Of a DNA stretch of 64,000 nucleotides, positions 22,312 through 53,531 are shown piece by piece (within the stretch, counting starts at the first letter, position 1; every line of letters starts with the position of its first letter). The stretch is from Prostheceraeus crozeri. Lineage: Eukaryota > Platyhelminthes > Polycladida > Euryleptidae. Under the pieces are notes generated by a model. That model was given only the letters and a program-made list of their open reading frames with translations. It was not told the DNA's origin and did no database searches. The position numbers and the translations under genes were made by a program. The stretch is from contig CAJQUW010016166.1 in assembly GCA_907163375.1 (NCBI GenBank), positions 62,001-126,000 of the forward strand. Direction: 5' to 3'.

Positions 22312-22620
22312 AGTAGTAAGTAAAACTCCACCACTGGACCGCGCAAGATGGCCGCCGTCGCTGACGTCCCCCCCTGTCAGACGAGTCGGCCGTGGTCCGC
22401 CGCCGTGTTGCTTCGAGTCTGACTTCCCCCCTCCTGTCAGACGATTTGGTCGTGGTCGGCCACCGTGTTGCTTCGAGTCTGACGTCCCCCCCCCCTCTGG
22501 CCCGACGACGTAGCGAGAGGTGGTGTGTGATGCGCTCTCCAGGTTGGCGTGGTGTGCCGGCCAGGTTGGCATGGTGTTCCGGCCAGGTTGGGAGGGTGGA
22601 ATGTCTGTGTCGGAACTCAC
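22312..22620 (+). repeat. GC-rich terminal region of element A with ~60-bp tandem repeats
   Basis: Unlike the AT-rich surroundings, this part is CpG-rich. About two and a half ~62-bp units contain CCGTGTTGCTTCGAGTCTGA and CCTGTCAGACGA, then three ~22-bp units contain AGGTTGGCGTGGTGTGCCGG. The mirror copy is at about 53225-53531. These are probably origin- or transposition-related subterminal repeats. Confidence 0.75.
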
Positions 22621-23033
22621 CTGAAAAAATCCTAAGTGTCAGAGTGTTTTTGTATGGACAAAATTTTGAAAATTTTCCAAAGTGCCGCATTTCGACCTGG
22701 GACCAAAGTTTGTTTCATCAAATTTCTCCGAACGGTAGGGGGGGAGGGGGGCTCAGTGAAAAGTGATGAAATTTTTTTGGTAAGGGTCCCAGATTGAAAT
22801 TCGAAAGTTTTAAATTTTTCAAAATTTTCATCACACTGGAGCTCCCACACTTAGGAATTTTTTCACTTGTGGCATGTTACATGACCATGTGCTCACCCAC
22901 CAACTTGCCGTGGTCACATGAGAATGGAGAGTCATATGATAGAGAATGATGAGACGAATCGTTTGCAACAAACCGCATGTCGCTACGATGAATACCTTTG
23001 GAGATAGAGCCATTTTAAGTTTTCTTCCGAGCA

Positions 23034-23041
23034 TATATAAA
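23034..23041 (+). promoter_or_regulatory. TATA box of A gene 1 (left arm)
   Basis: TATATAAA about 50 bp upstream of a splice donor (GACGAG then GTAAGC at 23083). In the right arm the same TATATA (38186-38191) is exactly where P1 inserted. Confidence 0.7.
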
Positions 23042-23082
23042 CCCCCGGCAACGTAAGTCTGATCACTTCATCGAAAGACGAG

Positions 23083-23638
23083 GTAAGCGATGGTCGTCGA
23101 TCTGAGCTCCCGATATCGGGTGTTTCAAAGGACTCTATCTTTTGAAGTAGGCAAGCTATCTTCTTACTTCAAAGTTTGTATGATAGAGTTTGATAGTGTT
23201 TTACTACTGATAAAATTTTTAAAAAGTAGTATGAGTAGTAAAATGCGGAATTTTTTTAAAATTCTTAATTTTCAGTTTTTTCAAAGTTTTAACATGTAGT
23301 CTAAGGTTTTCAAGTATGCTGAGTTCAAATCTGCCATCAGATTTGAAATTTAACTAAGTCTAAGGCAGCTTTGAGGGGTTAGATCCCAGCTACTGATCAC
23401 TACCTTTGACTCGGCGTTGCTGTTACCACTTCGGGGCAGTGACAATGATGTCTTCAGCTGTAAATAGCGGGTATCGGGGAAGATCTCTCACTTCCTAGTG
23501 ATCACTACAAGGTCTTCGGGCTGTCGACGGGATCAAGTGCCACTCACTACACTCAAATCTATCATTCCTCACTAAGTGTTATGCTTTAGGCTGTATACTA
23601 CATGATTCCAAACTTATAGAAATTTCATTATCTTACAG
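23083..23638 (+). other. 5'-UTR intron of A gene 1
   Basis: Donor GAG|GTAAGC, acceptor TTATCTTACAG|CTAACC, then ATG at 23645. The 556-bp interval has no supported coding frame. The arrangement is mirrored at 37586-38141. Confidence 0.65.
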
Positions 23639-23644
23639 CTAACC

Positions 23645-24031
23645 ATGGTCAATAACGATAGAAACAAGAAATTCCATATTAAAATGTGTGCGTGCGACCG
23701 AATTAACCGCCGAGACGGTCTCAAGGACCACATCAAGAAGGCAGGGGCCGACCACATGGTTATCCTGAATAGGGTTGCCTGTGTGAAGTGCAGGGTGCTG
23801 TTGGTTGTTGGGCAGGAGGCCGAGTTTTATCTGAGGCATGGTGAGTGTACAGGAGGGTTGGTGACCGATTTGAGATTTGTGGAGTTGATGAATGCTGAGA
23901 AGGAGCGAATGTTAGGGAAAGAGAAAGAGGCCAAGAATGTTGTTGAGAATGCTAGTGGGAATGCTGTGGAGAATGAGGTAGAGAATGCTGTGGCCGGTTT
24001 GAAGGCTGACAAGTGGCGGAGGAGTGTTTGA
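23645..24031 (+). CDS. A gene 1: zinc-finger protein with helical tail (left arm)
   Basis: 128 residues, starting MVNNDRNKKFHIKMCACDR just after the splice acceptor. Cysteine/histidine pairs (CAC near residue 14; CVKC; RHGEC) suggest a zinc-binding fold: C-x-x-C followed by H-x-x-C. After residue 75 the protein is charged and probably helical, with short repeats (NVVENASGNAVENEVENAV). The frame ends at TGA 24029-24031, but the +1 frame opens at the same place and encodes an acidic stretch (ESDDEDDVDLDRERV) to about 24163, so an ancestral frameshift is likely. The mirror copy (37193-37579) differs by one residue. DNA- or protein-binding is inferred; no family recognised. Confidence 0.6.
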   Translation: MVNNDRNKKFHIKMCACDRINRRDGLKDHIKKAGADHMVILNRVACVKCRVLLVVGQEAEFYLRHGECTGGLVTDLRFVELMNAEKERMLGKEKEAKNVVENASGNAVENEVENAVAGLKADKWRRSV

Positions 24032-24163
24032 GAGTGATGATGAGGATGATGTGGATTTGGATAGGGAGCGAGTGAGGAAGCTTGTGAGGAAGTTGAGCTC
24101 TTCGTCGTCGGAGGTGTCAAATATTGTCATTACCGATCCCCGCAGAGCTCATCTTCCCCAATA
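24032..24163 (+). pseudogene. A gene 1 acidic continuation in the +1 frame
   Basis: The frame reads GGVFESDDEDDVDLDRERVR, then a serine run and VSNIVITDPRRAHLPQ and a stop. The acidic-then-basic composition looks like a genuine protein segment cut off from gene 1 by a one-base shift near 24020. It could also be a separate exon. It is preserved in the right arm (about 37060-37190). Confidence 0.4.
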
Positions 24164-24250
24164 GTGAAGGGTGGTGGGTTACGGAAGCAGTCGGCGCGGT
24201 GGGATGAGGACATGGAGAAGAAGCATGTGTCGCAGCAAGTGGCACATGCT

Positions 24251-24826
24251 TTGTTGGTTGATCGGTAAGAAAGTTTGAAGAAGGTGAATGAGAGAACGTT
24301 GATTGAGTTGAGTGAGCTGAAAATGAAGGAGGTGAAATGTAAGGAGGTGGCAGATGAGAATATCCGTATGAGGCGTGTTGTGAAAGAGTTGAAGGAGAAT
24401 GTGCGAGTGTTGGAAGACGAGAATGATGAGCGAGAGAAGAGGACGAGTGCTGCAGAGAGGAGAATGGGAGAGGCAGAGTCGAAGTATGAGGAGTTGATGA
24501 AGGAGATGAGTGTATTGAGAGCAAGGAATGCTGAGTTGCAGAGGAGTGTGAGTAGGCAGGGTGATGAGAGAGAGTCGTTTGCGAAGTTGGAGCGCATGAG
24601 GAATGAATGGAATCGCTTGAATGAGGACAGAATGTTTGAGTTCCACATCCCTATTCGGGATAATCATTTGGACGGTCAAGTTCTTGTGAACCAAAATTTA
24701 GATGAGTACATCATCTGTTACAATGGCCATCCCACTAAGAAATGCTTACATGCCACACTCAGAATGCGCGGGCATTTACATAAATTTTCAGTGAGGAAGC
24801 CCGCGAGACTGCCTAAGGATGGCTAA
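24251..24826 (+). CDS. A coiled-coil protein segment (left arm only)
   Basis: An open frame of about 190 residues after an in-frame TAA; the GTG/ATG start is uncertain (ATG-led frame from about 24284). Residues 1-120 show strong heptads with many E/K/R (ELKENVRVLEDENDEREKR, AAERRMGEAESKYEELMKEM). The last 60 residues are globular: FEFHIPIRDNHLDGQVLVNQ, then YIICYNGHPTKKC. In the right arm all but the first ~20 codons are deleted and replaced by another gene (36581-36844). It may be the 3' part of gene 1. No family recognised. Confidence 0.5.
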
Positions 24827-25261: not shown

Positions 25262-26330
25262 CTGTCGAAGGTTGCCTTATAAACTTTCCATTGCATACGT
25301 TATGAGAACCATGAGTTCTACCTGTCTCTATCAATTAGACGAATTGATGAATGGAATGAAATGGGAGGACACCCACGCGCCACACGCAACATAACACATG
25401 TCTCTCTTTCGTAGTCTAACAAGCTCTTTACACATGGATCGCAGTCGATTGCTATCCCAGAATCATGTAAGCTATCTTAATTTTATTTAACACTATTTCA
25501 TCTACCATTATCACCCATATGAAATGTTATAAGATTTACAAGTTAGACTAAGCGTTCTACTATTTGTAAATGAAAGATATAGTTTCAACAGTTTACAGAT
25601 TAAAAATAAAGTTTCAACAGTCTGTACGCTAGAAATAAAGTTTTATCTGTTTGTATGTTTAAAGAAAGTTTCATCAGTTAACAAGTTAAAAATAAAGTTT
25701 CACCAGTGGACAAGTTAGAAACAAAGTTTCAATAGTGTGTATGTTAGAAATAAAGCTTTATCTGTTTGTATGTTAGAAACAAAATAAAGTTTCAACAGTT
25801 TACAAGATAAAAAATAAAGTTTCACCAGTTTACAAGTTAAAAAAAAATTTCAATAGCGTGTACGTTAGAAATGAAGTTTCAAGAGTTTACAAGTTAGAAA
25901 TAGAGTTTTAATAGTGTATACGTTAGAAATAAAGTTTTAGCTGTTTGTATATCAAAATAAAGTTTCAAGAGTTTACAAGTTAGAAATAAAGTTTTAGCTG
26001 TTTGTATATCAAAATAAAGTTTCAAGAGTTTACAAGTTAGAAAAAAGTTTCAATAGTGTGTATGTTAGAAATAAAGGTGTAACTGTTTGTAAAAATAAGA
26101 TCGCAAGATTTACTAGTTTACAAGTTAGACTAAGTGTAAATTAAAAATAAACTTATAACTGTTCACGAGTTAAAGCGTTGATGAGTTAAAGCAACGATGA
26201 GCAATAATAAGCTGAAAAGTTTTAGATTCACTTTAACATTACCATATGTTTACAGATAGAAATGTATCACAGCAAAGGTACTTCATGAGTTAGTTTGACA
26301 GGAGTGTATCATCTCAAACTTTTACTCCGT
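25262..26330. repeat. A left-arm repeat array 1 (GTTAGAAATAAAGTTT family)
   Basis: 25262-25550 is unassigned. From about 25560 to 26110 short units alternate: GTTAGAAATAAAGTTT, TAGCTGTTTGTATG, and AGTTTCAA(C/G)AGTTTACAAG. The end piece 26230-26330 (ACAGATAGAAATGTATCACA, then AGTGTATCATCTCAAAC) recurs next to the central spacer and, reversed, in the right arm. No genes. Confidence 0.8.
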
Positions 26331-26434: not shown

Positions 26435-26876
26435 ATGAGCTATGTACATTCTTTTGACGACGAGAGGAGCGATTCAGCCGATGGCACAGGTAGTTTCTCA
26501 GAGCATGGAGGACATTGTTTAGGTGACTCTAAGGACGTATGTCCAGCTGCCCTCATTGATAGGCTTCCAACTCATGATGAATGATGATATGCTTACGACC
26601 TACATTCAACCATTGGTGTATGCCCACACCCTCCCCCACAACGAGCTTGTCTGCTACATTGTATTCATGAGTGTGGCTCAAAGTAGGAAATTGAATGATG
26701 AGACTTTGCTGAAATATCCAAGGCGCGTATTCAAGCATGGTCGCCTACTGTTGGAGTATTATTATCAATGGCGCGACGACACACAACATTTGCCCACCTG
26801 TGTTTTACCACACCTATCAACGGAAGAATACGATCGAGCTTTAGTCGAGACGGTGAAAGGAGACGATGAGCGCTAG
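26435..26876 (+). CDS. A gene 2 (left arm), two exons, unknown function
   Basis: Exon 1 is 26435-26489 (MSYVHSFDDERSDSADGT). A 73-bp GT-AG intron (GTAGTT...TTGATAG, 26490-26562) restores frame to exon 2, 26563-26876; total 122 residues. Exon 2 is mostly helical: MLTTYIQPLVYAH, ELVCYIVFMSVAQSRKLND, YPRRVFKHGRLLLEYYYQW, ending TVKGDDER. The splice model is inferred from frame, intron length similar to gene 3, and conservation of both sites in the right arm. Without splicing, the upstream frame stops soon after the intron. No family recognised. It lies between gene 3's promoter and the left repeat array, all in the same direction. Confidence 0.55.
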
Positions 26877-27079: not shown

Positions 27080-27854
27080 ATGGTAAGTCGCTACTTTCCT
27101 CCCTCTCCTCCCTTGAACGTAAACTTGATAGAATCTTTTTTATTTTCAGGCATCTTCTACATCTACTACACTGACAGGACAAAATGGTGGCCAGACGTTA
27201 CAAGGTTCGCTACAATCAGATCATCTACAGCTGAGACCAGTGGAAGAAACAACAAAGGTACGTAATCCTACACCGCTACAGCGTAAATTTAAACAAGTCT
27301 TGCGTCATGAGGATCACAGCGTAGTACTGCAAACGGGAATGCTCCCTTCCACTGATGAGAAGATATTGAGCAATCAGTATGGGGACTACATGCTCATCCC
27401 CGTGAGTCCGTACATTCGCCACCAACTTGACATTATTGAAGAGTACGTGACATTAAATATGGACATTCCTACTCCTCTTGTTCAAGAGTGGAAGGCGAGA
27501 GATGAAAAGGATACTCCCTATAGAAAGATGTGGGATGGCAATCAAATTTGCCTACCATTATCACATTGGAGTAGTTATTATAAAAAGGATGGAGATCAAT
27601 CAATACCCATCAGATGTGATGAGCTCGGAGAAGGTACTTGGGATATCATTTTCAAAGTGAATGGGCTATATTGTGGTCAGCACAAGGATAACAAAATAGC
27701 CTCTCTCTCGATACACACTGAATCCATCCTATATATTCCAAAGCCACCCAGCGTAGGTGACATTATTGACGAAATCCTTAACGGGGGTGGTACGAAGCGC
27801 AAGTCGGACAAGAATGCTACCTCCAAACGCAAGTCAAGGAAAGAGAATTGCTAA
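27080..27854 (+). CDS. A gene 3 (left arm): basic-tailed protein, intron right after ATG
   Basis: Exon 1 contributes only the ATG (27080-27082). A 67-bp intron (GTAAGT...TTTTTTATTTTCAG) ends at 27149 and the second exon runs in frame to 27854; 235 residues. N-terminal ~45 residues are low-complexity (ASSTSTTLTGQNGGQTLQ). The middle is a folded domain: GDYMLIPVSPYIRHQLDIIE, PLSHWSSYYKKDGDQ, GTWDIIFKVNGLYCGQ, ASLSIHTESILYIPKP; the beta-rich pattern could be an OB-like DNA-binding fold, but this is a guess. The C-terminus is a bipartite nuclear-localisation-like basic tail (GTKRKSDKNATSKRKSRKE). The right-arm copy is intact with few substitutions. The unspliced frame from 27240 lacks the N-terminus. 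Confidence 0.7.
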
Positions 27855-28036: not shown

Positions 28037-28066
28037 TTTCCGTTTTAGGTTTCTATCATCATTTTT

Positions 28067-28597
28067 ATGGATTGTGAGGGTGAACCTGTACAGGAGCTCA
28101 GTGCTATTGCTATGAACAATTGGACATATCAGATTGTTAGTGTCTATCATCAACATGCCAACTGTGATCCCAATGTTGATCAATGGGCGAGAAAACACAT
28201 TCATGGACTTAATCTGAAATATTTGCAAGACTATGGCTTTTCTTGTGAGACTGCGCTTCTTATTGACTTTAAACGATGGTTAGCTGCTTTCAATGTTATA
28301 CGCATCTTTTGTAATAATCCTGGTAAGGAGAGGAAAGTATTTCCCAATCTAATCATTGATGATATTTTGCTCCCGCCTTGGGATAGTAGAGTGAATCAAC
28401 ATTATCATGAAGTCACGAAACGTTTGAAGGATTTGTGTGTTCCTATTTTGTCTGTTCGTTGTAGTAGCTACGTTCATAACCAATGCTTCTTTCCTCCTTA
28501 CCTCAGCACTGCGAAAGTCCTGTATGGTTATCATTGCTCGCTGTATGACAGTCACCAGCTGTATCTATTTTATCTGTTTCAAACCATTGATTTGTAA
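28067..28597 (+). CDS. A gene 4 (left arm): DEDDh-type 3'-5' exonuclease-like protein
   Basis: 176 residues from the ATG, but the frame is open upstream through VSIIIF to an acceptor-like TTTTAG at 28047-28048. The first beta-strand of the fold (VSIIIFMDCEGEP) would be more complete with those residues, so an upstream exon is possible. Motif I is D-C-E-G (DxE) followed by PVQELSAIA. HIHGLNLKYLQDYG resembles the substrate-side segment of DnaQ-like enzymes. The end YHCSLYDSHQLYLFYL supplies H-x4-D, the motif III of the DEDDh class; the motif II aspartate is not obvious. Function is inferred as nucleic-acid trimming. A poly(A) signal follows at 28620. The right-arm copy has about four substitutions. 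Confidence 0.65.
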   Translation: MDCEGEPVQELSAIAMNNWTYQIVSVYHQHANCDPNVDQWARKHIHGLNLKYLQDYGFSCETALLIDFKRWLAAFNVIRIFCNNPGKERKVFPNLIIDDILLPPWDSRVNQHYHEVTKRLKDLCVPILSVRCSSYVHNQCFFPPYLSTAKVLYGYHCSLYDSHQLYLFYLFQTIDL

Positions 28598-28739: not shown

Positions 28740-30830
28740 TTAGATTCGATGACGAACAAGATTTACTAGTTTGCAAGTTAGACTAAGCCTTCTATTATTT
28801 GTAAATGAAGGATATGGTTTCAACAGTTTACAGATTAAAAATAAAGTTTCAATAGTGTATGTGTTAGAAATAAAGTTCAAGCCGTTTGTATGTTAGAAAT
28901 AAAATAAAGTTTCAACCGTTTACAAGTGAAAAATAAAGTTTCAACAGTGTGTATCTTAGAAATAGAGTTTTATCGGTTTGTAAATTAAGGTCATGAGATT
29001 TAATAGTTTGTAAGTTAGACTAAGCGTTCTACTATTTGTAAATGAAAGATATAGTTTACAGATTAAAAAATAAAGTTTCAATAGTGTGTATGTTAGAAAT
29101 AAAGTTTAAGCTGTTTGTGTGTTAGAAATAGAATAAAGTTTCAACTGTTCGTTGATTAAAAATAAAGTTTCAACAGTGTGTACGTTAGAAATAACGTTTT
29201 ATCTGTTTGTAAAATGAGATTGTAGGATTTACTAGCTTGCAAGTTAGACTAAGCGTTCTACTTTTTGTAAACGAAGATATAGTTTCAACAGTTTACAGAT
29301 TAAAAATAAAGTTTCAATAGTGTATGTGTTAGAAATAAAGTTCAAGCCGTTTGTATGTTAGAAATAAAATAAAGTTTCAACCGTTTACAAGTGAAAAATA
29401 AAGTTTCAACAGTGTGTATCTTAGAAATAGAGTTTTATCGGTTTGTAAATTAAGGTCATGAGATTTAATAGTTTGTAAGTTAGACTAAGCGTTCTACTAT
29501 TTGTAAATGAAAGATATAGTTTACAGATTAAAAAATAAAGTTTCAATAGTGTGTATGTTAGAAATAAAGTTTAAGCTGTTTGTGTGTTAGAAATAGAATA
29601 AAGTTTCAACTGTTCGTTGATTAAAAATAAAGTTTCAACAGTGTGTACGTTAGAAATAACGTTTTATCTGTTTGTAAAATGAGATTGTAGGATTTACTAG
29701 CTTGCAAGTTAGACTAAGCGTTCTACTTTTTGTAAACGAAGATATAGTTTCAACAGTTAACAGATTAAAAATAAAGTTTCAACAGTGCATGTGTTGGAAA
29801 TAAAGTTTAAGCTGTTTGTATGTTAGAAATAAAATAAAGTTTCAAGAGTTTACAAGTTAAAAATAAAGTTTCAACAGTGTGTACGTTAGAAATAAAGTTA
29901 TATCTGTTTGTAAAAATAATATTGCGGGATTTAATAGTTCGTAAGTTAGACTAAGCGTTCTACTATTTGTAAATGAAAGATATAGTTTACAGATTAAAAA
30001 ATACAGTTTCAATAGTGTGTATGTTAGAAATAAAGTTTATGCTGTTTGTGTGTTAGAAATAGAATAAAGTTTCAACAGTTTGTAGATTAAAAATAAAGTT
30101 TCAACAGTGTGTACGTTAGAAATAAAGTTTTAGCTGTTTGTATGTTAAAAATTAAGTTTCAACAGTGTGTACTTTAGAAATAACGTTTTATCTGTTTGTA
30201 AAATGAGATTGTAGGATTTACTAGCTTGCAAGTTGGACTAAGCGTTCTACTATTTGTAAACGAAAGATATAGTTTCAACAGTTTACAGATTAAAAATAAA
30301 GTTTCAATAGTGTGTACGTTAGAAATAAAGTTTTAGTCGTTTGCGCGTTAGAAATAAAATAAAGTTTTAACCGTTTACAAGTTCAAAATAAAGTTTCAAC
30401 AGTGTGTATCTTAGAAGTAGAGTTTTATCGGTTTGTAAATCAAGGTCATGAGATTTACTAGTTTGCAAGTTAGACTAAGCGTTCTACTATTTGTAAATGA
30501 AAGATATAGTTTCAACAGTTTACAGATTAAAAATAAAGCTTCAATAGTGTGTACGTTAGAAATAAAGTTTTGTCTGTTTATATGTTAGAAACAAAATGAA
30601 GTTTCAACAGTGTGTACGTTAGAAATTAAGTTTTATCTGTTTGTATGTTAGAAATAAAGTTTTAGCTGCTTGTATGCTAGAAAGAAATGTGTAACTGTTT
30701 GGAAAATAAGATCATAAGATTTACTAGTTTGCAAGTTAGACTAAGCGTTCTAGTATTTGTAAATTAAAAATAAAATTATAACTGTTTACAAGTTAAAGCG
30801 TTGATGCGATGATGAACAATTAATAAGCTG
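28740..30830. repeat. A left-arm repeat array 2, higher-order 30/235/470-bp
   Basis: Short units built on AAAAATAAAGTTTCAACAGT and GTACGTTAGAAATAAAGTTT are organised in ~235-bp blocks, each headed by GCAAGTTAGACTAAGCGTTC (near 28765, 29005, 29235, 29475, 29705, 29945, 30230, 30465, 30735). Blocks pair into ~470-bp super-units; 28795-29270 and 29276-29745 are nearly identical. No coding frames. Confidence 0.85.
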
Positions 30831-30943
30831 AGAAGCTTTAGATATACTTTAACATTACCACATGTTTACAGATAGAAATGTATCACAGCAAAGCTACTTC
30901 ATGAGTTAGTTTGCCAGGAGTGTATCATCTCAAACTTTTACTC
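30831..30943 (+). repeat. inner end of A left arm
   Basis: A 113-bp sequence (CATGTTTACAGATAGAAATG, then GTTAGTTTGCCAGGAGTG) also present at about 26230-26330 and reversed at 31300-31420 and 35095-35200. It marks the edge of every repeat array toward the spacer or gene cluster. Confidence 0.7.
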
Positions 30944-31299
30944 CGTTTTTGAAATTTCAGTTTTGTACATATTTGAAGTATCATCATTGCGGTTTGTTCT
31001 TAATGTGTTTACGATGAACGCACACATGAGTCTTATGACACTATGGTTGTATCTTATAAGTGTCGACAAAGACTGATCGAAGTAAATAAAAATCTGTTAG
31101 ATTGTATTATCAAATATCTTAGTATTATACAAAGTTGAGAATGTAAGTTGAACATTTTATCGGAATGTTGTTTTAAAATGAAAGTAAGAACTTCATCGTA
31201 TGAGTATTCAAAGCATGTTTTGTAAATCAAATGTGTATAGTACTGACTTGATAGAATCAAATGAACTTGACAAACGCGTTTGAGAAGTTTGAGAGTTTG
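30944..31299. other. unique central spacer of palindromic element A
   Basis: 356 bp not repeated elsewhere in the window, at the axis between the two arms. A weak 68-codon minus-strand frame exists but has no recognisable features. I see no hairpin, gene or promoter here. Confidence 0.7.
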
Positions 31300-32690: not shown

Positions 32691-32831
32691 TGTTTAAATC
32701 TTCATCATGGAAATCAATGTTCCACAGTCATTTGAAAAAGGTATGATCACCCTTCATCTAACCCATCCGTTGCATGAAAACAACAACTCTTCGCATAATA
32801 ACATTTATTGAATAACTGTAACAAGCATGCA

Positions 32832-33362: not shown

Positions 33363-33400
33363 AAAAATGATGATAGAAACCTAAAACGGAAATTACACAT

Positions 33401-33553: not shown

Positions 33554-33573
33554 AGGGTAGAGTTAGGAAAGGA

Positions 33574-40090: not shown

Positions 40091-40150
40091 GTGTTGTTTT
40101 TAATTTCACATTTACGGGAATATAATAGAAACATTTTGTCTTCTATAAAA

Positions 40151-42204: not shown

Positions 42205-42226
42205 TTTAAAAGATAAAATAAAAGAT

Positions 42227-42709: not shown

Positions 42710-42790
42710 TTTTAATAAAAAAATTTTAAGTTACGAAAATTTTTAATCTATTCTAGTTATGAAAAAATTTTAAGTTATCAAAAATTTTAA

Positions 42791-43948: not shown

Positions 43949-44100
43949 CATGTTTTGATAATAATAATAATAATAATGCATGTATAGATGTAAATCTTTT
44001 ATTCGAATTACCAGCAGAAATATTTAGAGAACAGACTAAGGGTTTACCTTCTATTGAAACTAATTATTGCATTTTTCCAGGTGATCCATTTATAAAATTT

Positions 44101-44652: not shown

Positions 44653-44656
44653 ATAG

Positions 44657-45001
44657 ATGAAAAATATGAATAGAATAATAAATGAAGTAAACTCACTTAA
44701 TGAAAAAGTTGATAAAATGAAAACTCTTAAAATCAATTTAGAAAATGAATTAAAGAAAAATTTACAAGAAAACTCTAAAGAAAATAAAGAACAGTTAGAT
44801 TCTGTTAAAAGACAATTAGATGTTCTTAAAATTAAGTTAAATGCTCTTAAAACGGCGTTCAAGATTAATCAGCAGAAAATGCAAGTTAATAGAAAAGAAA
44901 TTAAAGTACATCACACGCTACTTGACGCAATAGATAAAGTGCAACAGACAATTAATAAAGTTATCTCGAAGTTGTTGTCCATTCACAAACGTAAATCTTG
45001 A
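44657..45001 (+). CDS. P1 central coiled-coil protein
   Basis: 114 residues, starting almost directly after the stop of the previous frame (MKNMNRIINEVNSLNEKVDK). Nearly the whole protein is heptad-like and Lys/Glu/Asn-rich (LKINLENELKKNLQENSK, DSVKRQLDVLKIKLNALK), ending LLSIHKRKS. It lies in the single-copy centre, except its first few codons which are in the arm. Possibly a structural or fibre-like protein; no family recognised. Confidence 0.55.
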   Translation: MKNMNRIINEVNSLNEKVDKMKTLKINLENELKKNLQENSKENKEQLDSVKRQLDVLKIKLNALKTAFKINQQKMQVNRKEIKVHHTLLDAIDKVQQTINKVISKLLSIHKRKS

Positions 45002-45200
45002 TCGGACCTTGTCCAGAGGCTTCAGCCGATGACGCACGTATATCTTAATCGGACCAAAGGTCCTCAGGTTTCTAACCTATAGAACTTTGTTCAGAGGCTT
45101 TAGCCGATCGGACCAAAAGTCCTCAGGTTTCTAACCTATAGAACTTTGTTCAGAGGCTTTTGCCGATCGGACCAAAAGTCCTCAGGTTACTAACCAATCG
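45001..45200 (+). repeat. ~64-bp repeats with GGACC hairpins in P1 centre
   Basis: Three units contain CGGACCAAA(A/G)GTCCTCAGG, TTTCTAACCTATAGAACTTT and CAGAGGCTT(T/C)(A/T)GCCGATC. Each GGACCAAAAGTCC can form a hairpin. A single related copy lies at 7735-7770 in P2. Intergenic position suggests transcription-end or spacer function. Confidence 0.65.
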
Positions 45201-45239
45201 TAAATATTTTTTCCCAAAAGTCAAATTTAATCCTAAAAA

Positions 45240-45596
45240 ATGCCTATAATTTATAAACACAATCTTAAACATTTTGCTTCAAATCAAAAAATTGCTCATG
45301 AACCATCTATGAAATCTGTTTACCATTATGACAGTGTAGAAACAATTCAAAAAGAAGGGGCTGGTATCTTTTCTGGTATTGGAAGTATCGGTAACTCAAT
45401 TAAAAATAATAAAGATTTGAATACATCTGCTGCAAAAGGAGCAGCTGCTATAGGTAGTACAGCTAGTGCAATATCAAATGCTGTTAAGTCTCAAAACGAA
45501 TTAAAACAACTAGAAACTATTCGTAAACTTAAGAATGACTCTAAAACTAAAAAAATTAAAAAAACTTTCAGAGGAAGCAAAAAACAAAATTGCTAA
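45240..45596 (+). CDS. P1 small Gly/Ala-rich virion-type protein, possibly frameshifted
   Basis: 118 residues, MPIIYKHNLKHFASNQK, a glycine/alanine-rich hydrophobic centre (GAGIFSGIGSIGNSIKN, AAKGAAAIGSTASAISNAV) and a lysine-rich end. At an A-rich run near 45560 another frame (to 45723) continues with LSEEAKNKIANIAVGGETLR and EEIRGNGLAKF, which looks like a natural C-terminus. The true product may thus extend to 45723 after a +1 shift or indel. Similar in style to small membrane-active capsid proteins of Polintons; not identified. Confidence 0.5.
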   Translation: MPIIYKHNLKHFASNQKIAHEPSMKSVYHYDSVETIQKEGAGIFSGIGSIGNSIKNNKDLNTSAAKGAAAIGSTASAISNAVKSQNELKQLETIRKLKNDSKTKKIKKTFRGSKKQNC

Positions 45597-45813
45597 CATA
45601 GCTGTAGGGGGTGAAACCTTGAGGAGCGGAGCTCCGTCTGATAGTAAAAAGGGGAGGAAAACAGGCGTAGCCATAGAACGTTCAATTGAAGAAATAAGAG
45701 GCAATGGTCTAGCAAAATTCTAAAATTATATTTTAGTAAAATTTTTTAGTAATTTTTTAGTAAAATTTTTCGGTGTATGAGAAAAACAAAAAGTCAAATT
45801 ATTTTTTATAAAA

Positions 45814-46363
45814 ATGTCTTCGCTTATCGAAAATAAATTTAGATGAGACGATCCTCCGTTCGTCAGTTATAATCAAAAAAAGAATGACTATATAAGAATT
45901 GTTATGAATCCCGGATCTTCTAGTTAAGTGAATACTGGAGGAGATTTAATCTTTGAAGTTGATAATCAGCAGAGTTATTTATATTTACTTGATTCCTTTT
46001 TACACTGTGAATATTCTTTATATAGTGATGCCAATTTTGCAACACCATTACCAGATACCGATAATATTGCATTAGAGAATAATTTTTTCCAAGATTATTT
46101 ACACAAATGCGTTTAGATGTTGCAACTCAAAATACAGAAACAATAAGTGATTCTCCAGGTGTAATTGATACAATGCTTAGATTTGTAACAATTGGTGAAA
46201 ATAATAAAAAGCATGAAATCGAAGGTTGGTTTCCTGATACTAATGATGGTATAATTGTTGATGATTTATCTCACGCTGGAACAGATGTAGCAGGAATTGC
46301 GAAAGATGTAGAAAATATTGCAAATCATTTAAATAAAACAAACAATAGTGCATATAAAGAAAT
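45814..46363 (+). pseudogene. P1 third capsid fragment with the missing N-terminus
   Basis: From the ATG at 45814 the frame reads MSSLIENKFR, a TGA, DDPPFVSYNQKKNDYIRIVM, a TAA, then VNTGGDLIFEVDNQQSYLYL and joins the sequence shared with the arm copies (FLHCEYSLYSDANF). It shifts frame near 46085 and continues to NNSAYKE, where at about 46365 it jumps to reversed arm sequence. It supplies the ~60 N-terminal residues absent from both arm copies (I/L-x-F-E-V, a strand typical of the family). Confidence 0.75.
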
Positions 46364-46379
46364 CATCTTTTTCATCTAT

Positions 46380-46907
46380 CTAATCATCATCATCATTATT
46401 ATTATAAGATTCTTTAAAATTATTATGATTATGATTATGGTCATTGTTAATAGTATAAGGTGTTGTCCACATATAAATTTTCTCTTGTTGAGCTAACCCA
46501 TTTATGTAAGATTTTAATAAATTAATATTTAAATTTGAATATAATCCTATATAAGTATCATCATCATATCTTTGTGGCATTTCTAATGTTTCTTTTTTAT
46601 AAATTGTATCTCTATAATAAACTTGGCATAATAACTCTTCATTATGTTTTTTACTTTCTACGTGAATGTTATATTGATTTTGTTCATCAACAAATAATCG
46701 GATTTTTTCTTTCGAAAAAGATTTTAATTTTTTTGCTAATTCTCTAATATTGATATAATTGATAATTTTAGTTTCTATCCAATCAGTATTACTAATTGGT
46801 AAAACTGCGCGAATAAATCCATAAACATTATTATGACCAATTATAACCATGTTTTCTTTATTCAATTCTACATACGCAACATCATTATTTTTACTTACAA
46901 TCTCCAT
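46380..46907 (-). CDS. P1 unknown structural-type protein (right arm)
   Basis: Mirror of 44101-44652, 175 residues. It lacks one NNFKESYN repeat of the low-complexity tail and has R to K at LAKKLKSF. The upstream frame is open to the (AAT)n junction, as in the left arm. Confidence 0.5.
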   Translation of the reverse strand: MEIVSKNNDVAYVELNKENMVIIGHNNVYGFIRAVLPISNTDWIETKIINYINIRELAKKLKSFSKEKIRLFVDEQNQYNIHVESKKHNEELLCQVYYRDTIYKKETLEMPQRYDDDTYIGLYSNLNINLLKSYINGLAQQEKIYMWTTPYTINNDHNHNHNNFKESYNNNDDDD

Positions 46908-47059
46908 AAATTTTATAAATGGATCACCTGGAAAAATACAATAATTAGTTTCAATAGAAGGTAAACCTTTAGTCTGTTCTCTAAATATTTCTGCTGGTAA
47001 TTCGAATAAAAGATTTACATCTATACATGCATTATTATTATTATTATTATCAAAACATG

Positions 47060-48217
47060 TATTCCTTTTTACACTGTGAATATTCTTTATATAGTGATGC
47101 CAATTTTACAACACCATTACCAGATACCGATAATATTGCATTAGAGAATATTATTTTTCCAAGATTATTTACACAAATGCGTTTAGATGTTGCAACTCAA
47201 AATACAGAAACAATAAGTGATTCTCCAGGTGTAATTGATACAATGCTTAGATTTGTAACAATTGGTGAAAATAATAAAAAGCATGAAATCGAAGGTTGGT
47301 TTCCTCATACTAATGATGGTATAATTGTTGATGATTTATCTCACGCTGGAACAGATGCAGCAGGAATTGCGAAAGATGTAGAAAATATTGCAAATCATTT
47401 AAATAAAACAAACAATAGTGCATATAAAGAAAGACGTGAATTTAACAAGAAAAGTAAACAGACAGTAAATTGGTCATTGTATCCATTATTCGGATATTTA
47501 GATTATGACAAAATATCATATCAATTAAAATTTAAGTTAATAATTCATCGGACAGCAAATAATGAATTAATCTTTAATGGTAAGACTGGAAAAAAAGCAT
47601 ATTTAAAAATTGATAGACTTGAATGGTGGATTAAGCATATTACTCCTTGTTTAGAGGTTGAAACAGCTATTGCAAAAAGATTAAATACTAACAAACCAAT
47701 TCCAGTAAATTTTCTAAAGCGTACTGCTAGTTCAGTAACTTTTACTGAGCAAAGATTTAACTGTCATTTTACTAGAACTTCGAATACTCCAAGATATTTA
47801 TTACCAACATTTCAAAAAAATAATTCTCCAAGTTTTGATAAGAACAACAATCTTTTTCATATTAATACAATTCGAAGTTTACAAGTTTCATTAAATCAAA
47901 CCCGATATCCAATTGATCCATTAAGATTCGATGATACCAATCATCAATTTATGGAAGGATATGATGCTTATAGAAATCTTTATATAGAATTTGGAGTTGA
48001 ACCACAATTAACTCCTGGAGATTGGAGACATTTATATCCTGTTTTCTGTTTCGATTTAAGTGCACAATCTGAAGATATTATTAAAAATGGTTGTGATGTA
48101 ACAATTAAAATTGAAAAGAAAGATTCCACAACTTCATTGATGGCTTATGGTTTATTGTTAGAAGATGTAAAATATTCTATTGAAGTTCTTAATGGGAAGA
48201 TGGTAAGGATAAGTTAA
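47060..48217 (+). CDS. P1 major-capsid-like protein (right arm), N-terminally truncated
   Basis: Mirror of 42791-43948; 385 residues from MYSFLHCEYSLY, no stops. About 11 residues differ from the left arm, mostly non-conservative (for example W to C in RFNCHF, G to R in YKERREF, S to C in TPCLEV, Y to D in LLEDVKY), as expected for unselected drift after insertion. The P2 remnant agrees with this copy at LLEDVKY. The same N-terminal truncation and (TTA)n junction are present. Confidence 0.8.
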   Translation, partial: YSFLHCEYSLYSDANFTTPLPDTDNIALENIIFPRLFTQMRLDVATQNTETISDSPGVIDTMLRFVTIGENNKKHEIEGWFPHTNDGIIVDDLSHAGTDAAGIAKDVENIANHLNKTNNSAYKERREFNKKSKQTVNWSLYPLFGYLDYDKISYQLKFKLIIHRTANNELIFNGKTGKKAYLKIDRLEWWIKHITPCLEVETAIAKRLNTNKPIPVNFLKRTASSVTFTEQRFNCHFTRTSNTPRYLLPTFQKNNSPSFDKNNNLFHINTIRSLQVSLNQTRYPIDPLRFDDTNHQFMEGYDAYRNLYIEFGVEPQLTPGDWRHLYPVFCFDLSAQSEDIIKNGCDVTIKIEKKDSTTSLMAYGLLLEDVKYSIEVLNGKMVRIS

Positions 48218-48298
48218 TTAAAATTTTTGATAACTTAAAATTTTTTCATAACTAGAATAGATTAAAAATTTTCGTAACTTAAAATTTTTTTATTAAAA

Positions 48299-48781
48299 AT
48301 GTCGGAAGCGAAAAGTAATAATAATGAAACTGTTGAATTAAAATTACGTAATATTGTTGAGAAAAATACCCCTAAAACTATTACGATTAACAAAAGAAAG
48401 TATTACATAAGTAAACCAATGATAGAGAATATTCAATTACAAGAAGAAAAGAACGGCGGGATTCTCCCATTAATTCCACTAATAATAGGAGGCATAGCAG
48501 CTGCGGGAAGTGTTGCAGGTGGGACAGCTGGTATTGTCCAAGCAGTAAATAAAAATAAATCAGAAAAGGCAGCATTAGAAGAACAAAAACGTCATAATAG
48601 AGAGCTAGAGAAAGTTGCTAAGGGAGAAAGAGTAGTAGATAATTTTATTAGTAAATTAAAATTAGTTGATGAAGGAAAACGAGTTCTTTGAAATATTCTC
48701 CACAATGTTGATGATTTAATTGAAATTAAAGAAACAAAAGATGGTTCTGGAATATATCTAAGTCCTAGCATGATTAGGTAA
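48299..48781 (+). pseudogene. P1 pX/minor-capsid-like protein (right arm), stop at codon 131
   Basis: Mirror of 42227-42709. The frame is intact to GKRVL, then TGA replaces a lysine codon (48689-48691); beyond it the original frame continues to DGSGIYLSPSMIR. The G-rich hydrophobic segment is unchanged. Confidence 0.65.
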
Positions 48782-48803
48782 ATCTTTTATTTTATCTTTT
48801 AAA

Positions 48804-49523
48804 ATGAATTCTACAAATTCAGAAAATTTGATTAAATTAAAAATTGCTAATTTAGATTTATTGAATTATCTCTTAAAAGTACATAAAACCTCAATTTGTC
48901 AGCATATTGGAGGTGACATACAAAAAACATTAGAAAACTTTCCTGGATTTATTTGGAGTAAATATTCGAAAGAAAAACATCTTCCTGGTCATTCATATAC
49001 CGGTCCAAGAACTCGATTAGATATAAGACTAGATGAGAATAATAATCCAAAACCAGGTGAAGAACCAATAAATAGAGTAGATGCCGCAGCTTACAGGCAT
49101 GATTTAGCTTATCGAAATCATGATCTAAGTTCTCGACATGTAGCTGATAAGAAAATGATACAAGAATTAGATAGTATTCAGAATCCTTCCTTTAGAGAAA
49201 GAATTGAAAGAATGTTTGTTAAGAAAGCTTTACAAGCTAAAATATTATTCGGTCAGGGTTTAAATGAAACGACATTAAAGCTGTCTGAGAGCAACGCTCG
49301 AACCTACGCGTCTGAAATTCACAAGGAATATAGAAGGCCTAAATATTTATTGAAAGTAAAAGTATTTAATAAAGATGATATTTGGAGTGCTGATCTTATT
49401 CATATGCCGAATGAAGGAGGGTTTAAGTACGCATTGACCGTTATAGATTTATATACACGATACGCTTGGGTAAAGCCTTTAAAAAATAAAAGTGGTCTAT
49501 CAGTTAAATATGCGCTTGAATAA
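48804..49523 (+). CDS. P1 phospholipase A2-integrase fusion, proximal part (right arm)
   Basis: Mirror of 41485-42204, 239 residues. The calcium loop reads YTGPRT instead of YTGPGT: the last glycine is changed, which should weaken calcium binding. The HDLAY helix is intact, as is the first integrase aspartate (WSADLIHM). It ends at the TAA shared with the left arm, after KYALE. Confidence 0.8.
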   Translation: MNSTNSENLIKLKIANLDLLNYLLKVHKTSICQHIGGDIQKTLENFPGFIWSKYSKEKHLPGHSYTGPRTRLDIRLDENNNPKPGEEPINRVDAAAYRHDLAYRNHDLSSRHVADKKMIQELDSIQNPSFRERIERMFVKKALQAKILFGQGLNETTLKLSESNARTYASEIHKEYRRPKYLLKVKVFNKDDIWSADLIHMPNEGGFKYALTVIDLYTRYAWVKPLKNKSGLSVKYALE

Positions 49524-49980
49524 ATCTTTAAAGAAAGTAATAGAAAGCCAAGGAAATTGTTTGCTGATAAGGGATCGGAATTTAATCGAAATGTTAGGCC
49601 ACTATTTGAAACTGTTTATTCAACTGAAAATGCAGGAAAGGCTGTAGTAATTGAGCGATTCAATAGATCATTAAAAAATAAAATTTTCAAAAAATTTACT
49701 GAGCAAAGAAATTAGAAATGGTTGAAGATATTACCAGGAGTTGTAGAAGAGTATAACAATAAGATTCATTCAGGTATTGAAGAAACCCCAAAGAATGCTT
49801 CTGACGACCCTGATTTAACACGAAAGAAAATATTCGAAAATAATTATTCGAATGAGAGTAATCCGAATTTGCAGAAACTTAAGCCGAAATTTAAAATTGG
49901 AGATAGAGTTAGAATATTTAAGTGTAAAAATAAATTTGAAAAAGGCTTTGTTAGCTACTGGACTAAAGAAATATTTTAAG
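49524..49980 (+). pseudogene. P1 integrase, distal part (right arm)
   Basis: Mirror of 41026-41484. It contains DKGSEFNRN (a three-base deletion removes the tyrosine) and ENAGKAVVIERFN. A private stop (CAG to TAG near 49712, EQRN-stop-KW) joins the shared stops, then KILPGVVEEYNNKIHSG and FKIGDRVRIFKCKNK follow. Non-functional. Confidence 0.8.
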
Positions 49981-50086
49981 TTTGTAAAATAAATCAAACT
50001 TATCCGATCACTTACGAAATCAAAGATTTAGATGATGAAGATATCAGAGGCCGATTTTATCAAAATGAATTACAACGATGCGATTT

Positions 50087-50527
50087 TTAATTATCATTAT
50101 CATTATTATTATTATTCAATTCTAACATAATATCAAGAAATGATACTCCTTTTTGTAATTTAAATAAAACATAAAGACATAATTGACCACAATAAGTAGT
50201 TCCTGGTTTTTGAATTTGAAATGTATTATAAATTCCATTTCCAAGTAATTCTTTGACTTCATTTGTTGCAGGCAATCCATAAGAGTCAAAATAGTAATTA
50301 TCTCCATTTTTATTTCTATGCCCCGCTGACCAATGTACTCCTTTTTGGTCTGACGTGTGAAGATTTGTTATGAAATTTACAGTTGGCTTATTTTTAATCA
50401 ATTGTAATTCGTCTCTCATCAATATGTGAAAATTCTTTATTCCCAATTGATTTGCGATTTTCTTCAGATCAAAATTTGTAGTTGTTTGCGTTCCATATAA
50501 TTTTAAAAACTCATTTATGTTGCTCAT
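50087..50527 (-). CDS. P1 adenain-like cysteine protease (right arm)
   Basis: Mirror of 40478-40918, 146 residues, one difference (I for F in the LDIMLELN end). The catalytic His, acidic and Cys motifs are all intact. It is the better candidate for the ancestral residue at that site, since P2 also has LDI. The upstream interval (50528-50656) matches the left arm. Confidence 0.88.
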   Translation of the reverse strand: MSNINEFLKLYGTQTTTNFDLKKIANQLGIKNFHILMRDELQLIKNKPTVNFITNLHTSDQKGVHWSAGHRNKNGDNYYFDSYGLPATNEVKELLGNGIYNTFQIQKPGTTYCGQLCLYVLFKLQKGVSFLDIMLELNNNNNDNDN

Positions 50528-50656
50528 TTTATAATAAAAAAAATTCTTAAGGGATCCCTAGAAGTCAGAAGGGGGGAGGGATTGAGTTTAAAATTGTCGC
50601 ATAATGATGACTTTCCTTATTACTTATTCGATTGAAGCTGTATGATTTAATTTCAT

Positions 50657-50854
50657 CTAAATTAAAAAGGTACATTTGTAAGGAATCAGTTTATTAGTAG
50701 AGTTAGTGTTTCGTACATCTTTAATCAACTGCAATTCATTTCTCATCAATAGGTGAAAATTCTTTATTCCCAATTGATTAGCGATCTCATTTAAATCGAA
50801 ATTCGTAGTTGTTTGTTTGCCGTATATTTTTAGGAAGTCTCTAATGTTACTCAT
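50657..50854 (-). pseudogene. P1 truncated duplicate of the protease (right arm)
   Basis: Mirror of 40151-40348: the first ~43 protease residues, then unrelated sequence and a stop. Its presence in both arms shows that the partial duplication happened before the dimer formed. Confidence 0.7.
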
Positions 50855-50919
50855 TTTTATAGAAGACAAAATGTTTCTATTATATTCCCGTAAATGTGAA
50901 ATTAAAAACAACACATGGA

Positions 50920-52470
50920 TATTTCTCTTTGATTACATCCACTTTGCATACATTCAATTTGGATACATTAAAATACATGTAAATTTGTCCACGCGTGGAC
51001 GCGTTCTAATTGGTTGAAGCACTGTATTGTATTTACATGTGCAACAGGAAATAACATTGCATATAAAACACGAAATAAGCATTTTCATATAAAACAGAGA
51101 GATACAAGTTTTTTGATGGGATTTGTGTCCACCACGTGTGACGCGTTCTAATTGGTTTGGAAGCACTGTATTTTTGCTGAATGCATAGTAATTGCATGTA
51201 CATGTGCAACAGGAAATAACATTGCATATAAAACAGAGGGGTTTCAAGAATGATAAGTTTTCTTCACAACGCGTCTAATGTTAACGCGTGAACGTGATTT
51301 GATTAGCTGAAGCGCTGTATTTTAGGTCAATGGCGCACCATTGTTCAAGAAAATATAATAAAATAGCATAGGTCTAACCATTGAAAATAAAGTGTCGTGC
51401 GGCCGTATCGCAGTAACAAAGCGGGGATTCATATCCAATTTCCATTGAATATGTCAGCGCAGTATTGTCGTTAAAAGACGCACCATTGTTTGGGAGAAGA
51501 ATGGAATCATTTGGAATGTCACATAATTGCTTTACACAATGAAAATTATCCATCCTTTTGTAGTCAATCTTCCGATAACGTTTGGTCGCGATTTTAAAAG
51601 TACAATAGAAACAGACACCCTACAAAGCATAGGAAATTTGTCTGCTAATGTACCTAATTGAAATGAAACTTCGGTAATTGATCTCATTTTGCTTCAAGAG
51701 ACTATAAAAATATGTCTTGTCATTATCACAAAGAGATAAAAGATAGTTGATGTGCTTACCGATAAAAATTTTACACATAACACTGAGTGAATTGCTTCTT
51801 TTTTCATGCAACAAGAATTTGCGTAAGTTTACAATTGTATTATCCTCTCCATTTGGCTCTATGAAATCACTCAAAGAATCTGTAAATTCATGTCTCTCAA
51901 AATATATTCCTCTTCAATTCCTCTCGTAATTTTCTCATCCTCCCTGGCAACGATTGTTTTCTTCTATCTTCAAATTAATCTTGTCTCATTTTGAGAAATA
52001 TATGACGAGAGCGTTTTGACACAACCTTCACTGACAAGAAACACTGTTAAATTAAATAAGTCTTCAGCACATTTGTTTGAAATAGCCATATCGATTATTG
52101 TTGTTGTGTATTGTTTCACGGCATTGCAGCCGGAGTAGGATTTGCTGGATATTTATTCCACGTCTTACAAATGTCTAAGTGGGTGTAGCAGCTGTTTGTT
52201 CTTTAACACATTGTTTTCTTTCAAATGTTTGAGTGGGGATCACAGCTCTTTACTCTGAAATGCTTTTCTTCATAAATGCGAGAAGCAGATGTTCTCTACA
52301 ATTGGATCATCTGAGTGCAAAGCAGTAGGAACTGCTGGAATTACTAAAACTCCTGAAGATATAACAATTGTAAAAGTACCTAAACTTATTGTTAGGAATA
52401 TGCCAATTCCTTCAAATATTATTAGACACATAATTTTAGTTATCTCATATTTTAAAAACATGAAAAATGG
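50920..52470 (-). repeat. P1 right-arm outer region (mirror of 38530-40090)
   Basis: Contains the ~150-bp ACGCGT-bearing repeats (50930-51360), the small-ORF region (51360-52160) and the membrane-protein fragment (about 52263-52462). Small indels distinguish it from the left arm; for example one repeat unit here reads CACCACGTGTGACGCG. Confidence 0.7.
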
Positions 52471-52817
52471 ATTTAGAAGACGATTTTAAAAATACCAATT
52501 TTTTTGATGTTGTGGCTTGGAACGGTTATGATTTTAAGGGGCTGAAAATTGTAATTCTCAAATTTTGAGATTCTTAACTTTTATGATTTTCAGTGTCTTT
52601 GAACGGTCATGACTTTGGGAGTAAAATGTCATAATCACAAATTTGAGATTTTGAAAAATTTGAAAAATTGGGTATTTTTAAAAACGTCCAAATTGATGAA
52701 TTTAGGTCTTCATAACCTGAAAAAAGGTTTAAATTCATGAATTTATGTCGTTTTTAAAAATACCATTTTTCTGAATTTGTCTTGTCCTCAAACGGTCTTT
52801 TACCCATTACTTATATA

Positions 52818-53531
52818 TGCTCGGAAGATAACTTAAAATAGCTGTATCTCCGAAAGTATTCATCGTAGCGACATGCGGTTTGTTGCAAACGATTTGTCTC
52901 ATCATTCTCTATCATATGACACCTGAACCATTCTCATGTGACCACGGCAAGTTGGTGGGTGAGCACATGGTCATGTAACATGCCACAAGTGAAAAAATTC
53001 CTAAGTGTGGGAGCTCCAGTGTGGTGAAAATTTTGAAAAATTTAAAACTTCCGAATTTCAATCTGGGACCCTTAACAAAACTTTTTTCATCACTTTTCAC
53101 TGAGCCCCCCCCCTCCCCCCTACCGTTCGGAGAAATTTGATGAAACAAACTTTGGTCAGGGTCCCAGGTCGAAATGCGACATATTGGAAAATTTTCAAAA
53201 TTTTGTCCATACAAAGTCACTCTGACACTTAGGATTTTTTCAGGTGAGCTCCGACACAGACATTCCACCCTCCCAACCTGGCCGGGACACCACGCCAACC
53301 TGGAGAGCGCATCACACACCACCTCTCGCTACGTCGTCGGGCCAGAGGGGGGGACGTCAGACTCGAAGAAACACGGTGGCCGACCACGACCAAATCGTCT
53401 GACAGGAGGGCGGGGGGACGTCAGACTCGAAGCAACACGGCGGCGGACCACGGCCGACCCGTCTGACAGGGGGGGACATCAGCGACGGCGGCCATCTTGC
53501 GCGGTCCAGTGGTGGAGTTTTACTTACTACT
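52818..53531 (-). repeat. outer end of A right arm
   Basis: The reverse complement of 22312-23033 with small indels. It includes the GC-rich tandem repeats (53300-53531) and ends GTTTTACTTACTACT at 53531, followed by ATCATA. A 136-codon minus-strand frame through the GC-rich part is a composition artefact. Confidence 0.8.

Follow-up and report, generated by a model that had tools for sequence, protein, structure and literature searches.

Element A, a palindrome lying in the 64,000-nucleotide stretch of DNA analysed here (the window), is probably a non-autonomous, self-complementary derivative of an amplified Polinton which encodes a TATA-binding protein (TBP), DI/SYREC-like in form and mobilised in trans. 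No description of palindromic Polintons was recognised in the literature, judged by titles and the beginnings of abstracts among the matches listed. The limits of A, and of element B nested in it, are as follows.

22312-53531: element A, with AGTAGTAAG...CT ends, nested element B included
22306-22311 (left) and 53532-53537 (right): ATCATA, the perfect 6-bp target-site duplication of A
22312-23033, + strand: left terminal inverted repeat of A, GC-rich, with subrepeats of about 60 bp and the AGTAGTAAG end
52818-53531, - strand: right terminal inverted repeat of A, cut off from its arm by B
38192-52811: element B, palindromic, Polinton/adintovirus-like, 14.6 kb, with AGTAATGGGTAA ends
38186-38191 and 52812-52817: TATATA, the perfect target duplication of B

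The Polinton-type ends and the ATCATA duplication of the original prediction were both confirmed, AGTAGTAAGTAAAACTCC being present at both termini and the duplication on both flanks. Its reading of 22312-53531 as one element was right about the ends, but 14.6 kb of this span is the separate element B, and without B and one copy of the B duplication A has a net length of 16,594 bp (about 16.6 kb). Polinton/Maverick elements are defined by AG...CT ends, terminal inverted repeats (TIRs) and a 6-bp target duplication; all three were found in 7/7 elements tested, every duplication being perfect and two of the seven being the A-family palindromes (2/2). The arms of B run to 44613 and from 46395 with 98.4% identity, and its frames include a DJR capsid, a PLA2-like and an integrase-like protein (the last below the Pfam cut-off). 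The B frames scanned gave no recognisable PolB, and a PDB search with its 156-aa protease-like frame gave no meaningful match. Apart from those of B, the frames scanned include a mariner transposase, a Penelope-like RT and GIY-YIG, which suggest an animal host.

The A-type terminus was present at all 40 scored places of the 2.05-Gb genome, the window's two included (the 1,159 first-look candidates of this search are not element counts), so that the terminal sequence does recur at other element ends. The elements so bounded carry extra genes. Besides the window, five convergent terminus pairs lie 21-27 kb apart, and the five copies which they bound share the ends of A and all have perfect 6-bp duplications. 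Polintons are described in the part of the source cited here as elements of 15-20 kb with PolB, an rve integrase, a packaging ATPase and a jelly-roll capsid (PMC4028283). Four of the five fuller copies have PolB, integrase, ATPase-like, capsid-like and TBP genes, PolB and integrase relatives thus standing together as expected of Polintons; in C11999 both PF03175 (PolB) and PF00665 (rve integrase) scored above the cut-off. The fifth, C82, is interrupted: its PolB is split into two pieces and the ATPase-like gene is present, but the integrase-capsid-TBP stretch is missing. The 416-aa capsid-like protein aligns to the DJR protein of B (22%, pairwise E 2e-8) and had no Pfam match and no meaningful PDB match, while the ATPase-like protein has a P-loop by eye and no above-cut-off Pfam match. 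An adenovirus-like protease was not recognised among the parent frames scanned. The family yields many thousands of first-look matches, and the matched N-terminal part of PolB is stop-free at 73/73 best-scored places, a sample biased to the best.

On sequence grounds, the parent Polinton encodes a predicted TATA-binding protein. Its 262-aa frame matches PF00352 in one stretch (E 6.4e-14) and the relative P0033 does so in two stretches (E 7.2e-23), whereas in the relative P0032 residues 7-163 of 184 align to a PDB TBP; the frame and these relatives together show the two repeats of the TBP family. In the P0032 alignment three of the four Phe positions, which we take to be the intercalating residues of TBP, are kept by eye. 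No paper on a Polinton-encoded TBP was recognised among the literature matches listed. With this TBP-bearing family one could ask whether recognition of the core promoter has passed to a Polinton.

The genes and repeats of A are arranged from the left end as follows.

23034-23040, + strand: TATATAA, the TATA box of gene 1; B inserted at the counterpart of this box in the right arm
23606-24823, + strand: zinc-finger/coiled-coil gene, open at 23606-24028 and 24269-24823, as at the Polinton right end
25577-26091: outer array of 29-bp repeats
26523-26873, + strand: 117-aa ORF, TATA box at 26398
27080-27851, + strand: 240-aa ORF gene, TATA box at 26966; a Polinton left-end gene
28061-28594, + strand: DEDDh-type exonuclease-like gene; a Polinton left-end gene
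28759-30795: inner repeat arrays with periods of 29/63/229/465 bp
30796-31283: axis segment, of which 30959-31283 is unpaired in the window copy
31267-31282: turning core TTGACAAACGCGTTTG, one half of a palindromic core that other copies show whole
31284-38191, - strand: right arm of A, mirror of the left, running up to the B insertion, with a zinc-finger remnant inside
32835-33380, 33577-34296 and 34553-34903: right-arm frames of A

A had been taken for an undescribed type of element with an unfamiliar gene set. The first claim was rejected because the terminus led to resident Polintons which it also bounds and which carry extra genes, and the second fell since the zinc-finger/coiled-coil, 240-aa and DEDDh genes are outer blocks of the resident Polinton. 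These three are the only parent genes found in the arms, in agreement with the predicted lack of a recognisable polymerase, integrase or capsid gene, and A itself has no PolB and integrase of its own. The marks of a non-autonomous Polinton derivative, namely shared ends and duplication, lost core genes and fuller copies in the genome, were all found. Both suggestions made at the outset, a non-autonomous passenger using Polinton integrase and an end fragment of a larger unknown virus-like element, come close to our best reading.

The three predicted TATA boxes are real as motifs, TATAWAW standing upstream of genes at 23034, 26398 and 26966 and recurring at the matching places of the right arm; further matches lie inside the 240-aa ORF (27579, 27730) and on the opposite strand (23039). 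The description "TATA-driven" fits the genes of A but does not extend to the fuller copy C11999, in which TATAWAW lies in the upstream 300 bp of only 3/17 genes. As for the predicted short GT-AG introns, one is clear, at 27083-27149 (67 nt) directly after the ATG of the 240-aa gene. The zinc-finger gene is present and of the Polinton right-end type, but in the unspliced reading its ORF runs into an in-frame stop in each arm, at a place where the C11999 copy is open; splicing may bypass this stop. Both arms keep the 117-aa, 240-aa and DEDDh-like frames open. Pfam gave nothing for the 117-aa ORF, the sole A gene for which no counterpart was found in the five fuller copies. The 240-aa gene of A has dN/dS values of 0.23-0.37 against 12 other copies, which indicates constraint during at least some of that time. 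In the DEDDh family, RNase_T was matched weakly by 4/28 members (best E 0.0075). DEDDh exonucleases are marked by DxE, D and HxxxxD motifs and an RNase-H-like fold; DxE and HxxxxD are conserved in the 28-row alignment wherever a row covers them. A PDB search with this alignment gave no meaningful match, and among viral contigs 12 stretches fitted a pattern and none was confirmed as a relative; the protein is plausibly a DEDDh exonuclease. For the genes of unassigned kind, PHROGs and NCBIfam yielded no useful match.

BLAST and the repeat search measured inverted arms of about 8.6 kb, close to the predicted 8 kb, whereas the predicted unique axis of 356 bp proved to be an unpaired centre of 325 bp (30959-31283). 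The arms pair as follows.

22312-23040 with 52811-53531: 91% identity
23034-24338 with 36909-38191: 97% identity
24928-26076 with 35408-36556: 93% identity
25781-29118 with 32312-35645: 97.7% identity
30264-30958 with 31284-31978: 95% identity

Missed adapters yield false inverted duplications in long-read data, and unsplit hairpin reads could in principle have produced such a palindrome in the assembly. This is very improbable, since the arms differ by about 1-9% plus indels, one arm alone holds the 14.6-kb insertion, the duplications are perfect and the same centre occurs on independent contigs. The axis was found at 40/40 scored loci with 90-100% identity, the window included (the 990 candidates are first-look counts, not element counts), and an inverted axis partner appeared in 17/40 by the hit table alone, some partners being just 37-55 bp. 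Same-contig DEDDh pairs less than 7 kb apart were convergent in 6/6 cases. Of 13 centres read, 11 contain the axis, and ten of these reach 31280-31283 and turn at one short palindromic core, in which AAACGCG is kept (AAACGCA in L054) and beyond which the sequence resumes at differing points. The core is changed in L067, where the turn was located only approximately; the centre of C146 differs from the A-family axis, and the centre of C1878 was not readable. Two further palindromes, C11461 and C1069, have the A-type axis but carry PolB in their arms.

A single target duplication bounds each of A, one PolB-type palindrome and B, and one flanking duplication per palindrome indicates integration as finished palindromic molecules. 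Both A-family palindromes tested (2/2) have one terminus at both ends and were palindromic before integration, as in SYREC/DI-like genomes. An origin within the chromosome, once a copy had integrated, whether through inverted duplication, through fold-back amplification or through another copy inserting in the opposite direction, would find a precedent in the nested insertions which do occur here (B in the window, and an integrase-relative stretch inside PolB in C82 and C1069). The lone duplication that encloses the entire palindrome, seen in B and in the two A-family palindromes tested, and the same turning core on many contigs, make it unlikely. We likewise doubt that the TIRs of an ordinary Polinton, in the manner of Foldback or Galileo, grew towards each other and finally joined without any particular form of replication. 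The internally repetitive arms of A do recall those elements, as far as the consulted part of the source describes them (PMC3573991); gradual growth, however, predicts variable inner boundaries, and one common turning core is found although the arms carry different genes.

Snap-back of one Polinton end was rejected as the full account, since each arm of A combines outer gene blocks of the left and the right Polinton end, set about the repeat-rich axis, and at least one internal rearrangement is needed besides. Neither the axis nor the 29-bp repeats were found in the five fuller copies searched, which thus did not point to a parental molecule with this inner end; the axis could be captured host DNA.

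To our knowledge, direct observation of Polinton replication and particles is almost lacking, and we infer the following mechanism for the palindromes. A linear, protein-primed replication intermediate with one terminus and an inner end would fold back or join head-to-head at TTGACAAACGCGTTTGTCAA, a short inverted repeat, and so yield a self-complementary molecule with an identical terminus at either end. Its displaced single strand could pair with itself, and one end type would suffice for copying it. Integrase and capsid would be supplied in trans by complete Polintons, as would PolB for A-type copies, whereas PolB-type palindromes would use the PolB in their own arms. The lineage-specific unpaired centres may have arisen when sequence to one side of the core was lost at a later stage. 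Pairing between the arms would tend to keep them alike: in a 257-bp segment by the axis, each arm was closer to its partner in the locus than to any other locus in 7/9 loci (97.6-100% within these loci, against a between-locus mean of 94.6% and maximum of 98.1%), the window (95.9%) and L067 (86.9%) being off this pattern. Gene conversion after integration predicts the same likeness equally well. These recurrent pre-integration palindromes, in a family with its own TBP, would form a natural record of protein-primed genome fold-back.

A bolder extension, which we regard as speculative and rather doubtful, is that the TBP-bearing lineage has split into a helper, namely the complete element, and self-complementary palindromes of DEDDh and PolB type, which replicate by hairpins at a dedicated 20-bp core and are kept as parasites or multipartite segments. 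A multipartite Polinton-related virus, of which the palindromes would be regular self-complementary segments, each with a share of the genes, and not defective parasites, seems improbable. Palindromes of the two types with common ends and axis and different arm genes, together with the constraint on the 240-aa gene, would suit such a virus; against it, no capsid or integrase palindrome was seen among the few palindromes read, the genome also contains complete single-molecule Polintons and the zinc-finger ORF of A is interrupted.

Among known systems, Polinton/Maverick is the parent family of A by its ends and its PolB and rve integrase, with candidate genes for the packaging ATPase and the jelly-roll capsid; A differs in being palindromic and without these four genes. 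Mirusviruses and other large DNA viruses carry TBP like the parent of A, but here the carrier is a Polinton of about 21 kb. Adintoviruses share with B the DJR capsid, PLA2-like domains and an integrase-like frame, and those of insects measure about 13-14.5 kb in the part of the source cited (PMC8363768), whereas B is a 14.6-kb palindrome with no PolB recognised in the frames scanned. Foldback and Galileo also have long, internally repetitive inverted repeats, and the Galileo transposase is P-element-like according to the consulted part of the source (PMC3573991); A has Polinton ends and a fixed axis instead. Teratorn is a virus-transposon with long inverted repeats (PMC6431247). It differs from A as a combination of herpesvirus and piggyBac of up to 182 kb which is not protein-primed. 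SYREC and snap-back defective adenovirus genomes and self-complementary AAV are palindromes derived from a linear genome with the same viral terminus at both ends, as in A, but the A-family palindromes are integrated, recurrent and built on one common centre.

The AG...CT ends, the ATCATA duplication and the inverted arms of the palindromic element A were all confirmed by sequence and repeat comparison. The original prediction had described 22312-53531 as one element; its limits stand, but the single unit does not, since the span holds two nested elements, A and a second palindrome, B, in its right arm. A measures 16,594 bp once B and one copy of the duplication are subtracted, and from the end inward its arm carries a GC-rich terminal inverted repeat, a zinc-finger/coiled-coil gene (with a broken open frame in either arm), a 29-bp repeat array, 117-aa, 240-aa and DEDDh exonuclease-like ORFs, repeats and the axis. 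Of the proposed short GT-AG introns one is clear, 67 nt long and immediately behind the ATG with which the 240-aa gene starts. TATA boxes do lie upstream of A's genes (23034, 26398 and 26966), but the family as a whole does not share this habit: in a fuller copy, C11999, just 3 of 17 genes have TATAWAW within 300 bp upstream. Arrays of a 25-bp satellite (ATGACTTGTTTGATTATCATACTTC and variants) border A to the left and to the right, and the target ATCATA seems to belong to this satellite.

Other features of the window
38192-52811: element B, 14,620 bp, Polinton/adintovirus-like, independent of A
7777-10321: B-like fragment; integrase-like, PLA2-like and protease-like frames by likeness to B
5288-5774 and 14615-15101: inverted segments (99%), within 5288-15101
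13467-14069: Penelope-like RT frame, between these inverted segments
14328-14912: GIY-YIG frame, likewise within 5288-15101
16013-17203: mariner-type transposase, open 397-aa frame (PF01359)
3084-4507, 17315-19116, 20659-21142, 21765-22293 and 53531-54265: 25-bp satellite arrays

Element B is bounded by TATATA duplications, its ends are AGTAATGGGTAA, and its arms are 98.4% identical across 6.4 kb around an unpaired centre of 1.8 kb holding a displaced inverted copy of 43577-43947. Its frames show a DJR capsid domain (PF21738, E 6.1e-16) and a PLA2-like domain, and one more is integrase-like, scoring below the Pfam cut-off. B went into TATATA at 38186-38191, which corresponds in the right arm to the TATA box in front of A's first gene. 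The fragment at 7777-10321 shows about 90-95% identity to B in the listed blocks.

The terminus of A was matched at all 40 scored places, the window's two included (from 1,159 first-look candidates across the 2.05 Gb of the genome), and convergent pairs 21.3-26.8 kb apart were found on five further contigs. All five, C11999, C82 and C4636 among them, were read as fuller copies of a parent Polinton, each with perfect 6-bp duplications. In C11999 the gene order, read from one end, is 240-aa, DEDDh, 139-aa, 124-aa, mu-like, ATPase-like, 205-aa, integrase (PF00665, E 1.5e-10), 152-aa, capsid-like, TATA-binding protein (TBP) with a partial paralogue of its upstream region (other strand), 421-aa, 271-aa, 122-aa, 350-aa (in this copy only), PolB (PF03175, E 4.7e-7; other strand), 164-aa and zinc-finger (other strand), the integrase and PolB matches being above cut-off. 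PolB, integrase, ATPase-like, capsid-like and TBP genes are present in four of the five, the frame being broken in some; C82 lacks the integrase-capsid-TBP stretch, and its PolB is split into two pieces about 11.6 kb apart, with a distant integrase (35%) between them. The zinc-finger gene is likewise present in four, and was not found in C4636. The arm of A thus brings together outer blocks from both ends of the Polinton, and the blocks common to A and these copies share 85-98% nucleotide identity (mostly 91-95%). Inserts with a distant integrase (35-36%) lie inside PolB in C82 (L046) and C1069 (L065); with B in the window as a further insertion, nesting may be frequent in this family.

A belongs to a family of palindromes. 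Of 990 candidates for the axis probe 40 were scored; all matched, the window among them, and at 17 the inverted partner is visible from the hit table alone. Centres were examined in the window and 12 other places (L054-L061 from axis hits, L066 and L067 at DEDDh pairs, and contigs C146 and C1878), and the axis was recognised in 11, all but the last two, which fall outside the pattern. In ten of the 11 the sequence extends to 31280-31283 and has the AAACGCG core (AAACGCA for L054); in L067 the core is altered. The palindromes of L057 and L058 run nearly perfectly through the core, in L059 and L060 a stem of about 30-40 bp is followed by a jump, and other axis centres resume at 31094, 31199, 31213 or about 30959, the last being common to L061 and the window. 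DEDDh pairs less than 7 kb apart were convergent in 6/6 cases (contigs appearing more than once among the scored DEDDh matches). On C11461, flanked by a perfect GTTATG duplication, and C1069, the arms of palindromes with the same axis contain PolB and the 164-aa gene in place of DEDDh, a nested insert cutting PolB in the right arm of C1069. One centre outside the pattern is the following.

L068, C146:54261-55110: near-perfect palindrome centre of a second, unrelated kind, in a copy that carries DEDDh

It encodes a divergent DEDDh-like fragment (27% identity), and the repeats after the DEDDh gene of C146 are those of the axis-bearing copies.

Palindromes existed before integration, as their flanking duplications show. 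Protein-primed replication displaces single strands, and a displaced strand with one terminus, if folded at the 20-bp core, would yield a self-complementary molecule that has one and the same terminus at either end; alternatively, two half-molecules joined at this core would give the same product. Replication steps of this kind probably produced the palindromes. Along 257 bp next to the axis, the two arms of a locus are 97.6-100% identical in 7/9 loci (exceptions: the window, 95.9%, and L067, 86.9%), against a between-locus mean of 94.6% and maximum of 98.1% (181 comparisons, restricted to pairs with at least 150 aligned bases; two loci contributed one arm only). The higher identity within loci is consistent with arms that pair repeatedly or with gene conversion.

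Between the 240-aa gene of A and 12 other copies dS is 0.22-0.29, and the dN/dS of 0.23-0.37 indicates constraint during at least part of the gene's history. For DEDDh, dS is 0.03-0.08 and dN/dS, on few differences, 0.10 to 1.08 (11 copies, one other having a stop; one partial copy dropped). A is therefore a mosaic with recent exchange. The N-terminal part of PolB (602 aa) gave 29,200 first-look candidates and DEDDh 11,098, numbers which are not element counts; stops within the match were seen at 0/73 scored PolB places (the best-scored, hence biased to intact ones), 47 of them in a frame of exactly 1273 aa, and the 150 DEDDh candidates scored were all 97-100% identical. Together these results point to a large and recent family expansion.

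The parent Polinton also carries a further gene, at the following places.

L052:618-1403 (C11999), with homologous places in L040, L043 and L049: TBP gene, adjoining a partial paralogue of its upstream region

No Polinton TBP report was recognised among the papers found on Polintons or Mavericks and TBP, as far as titles and the beginnings of abstracts tell. Both TBP repeats lie in a single open frame in three of the four copies having the gene; in the fourth, C11999, the C-terminal end lies outside that frame. Six relatives were found for the TBP frame, compared with 31 for the DEDDh protein and 718 for the capsid-like one, and four of the six lack a TBP domain and match the upstream region only, so the TBP looks confined to a sublineage in a search that requires shared words and similar length. 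The 262-aa frame of C11999 matches PF00352 (E 6.4e-14), and NCBIfam TBP models below their cut-offs; PF00352 was found twice in a relative, P0033 (E 7.2e-23). Compared with TBPs of known structure in the PDB, the 262-aa frame reaches a best E of 2.8e-6, and residues 7-163 of another relative, P0032 (184 aa; 82% identical across half the query), align with a PDB TBP at E 3.1e-11.
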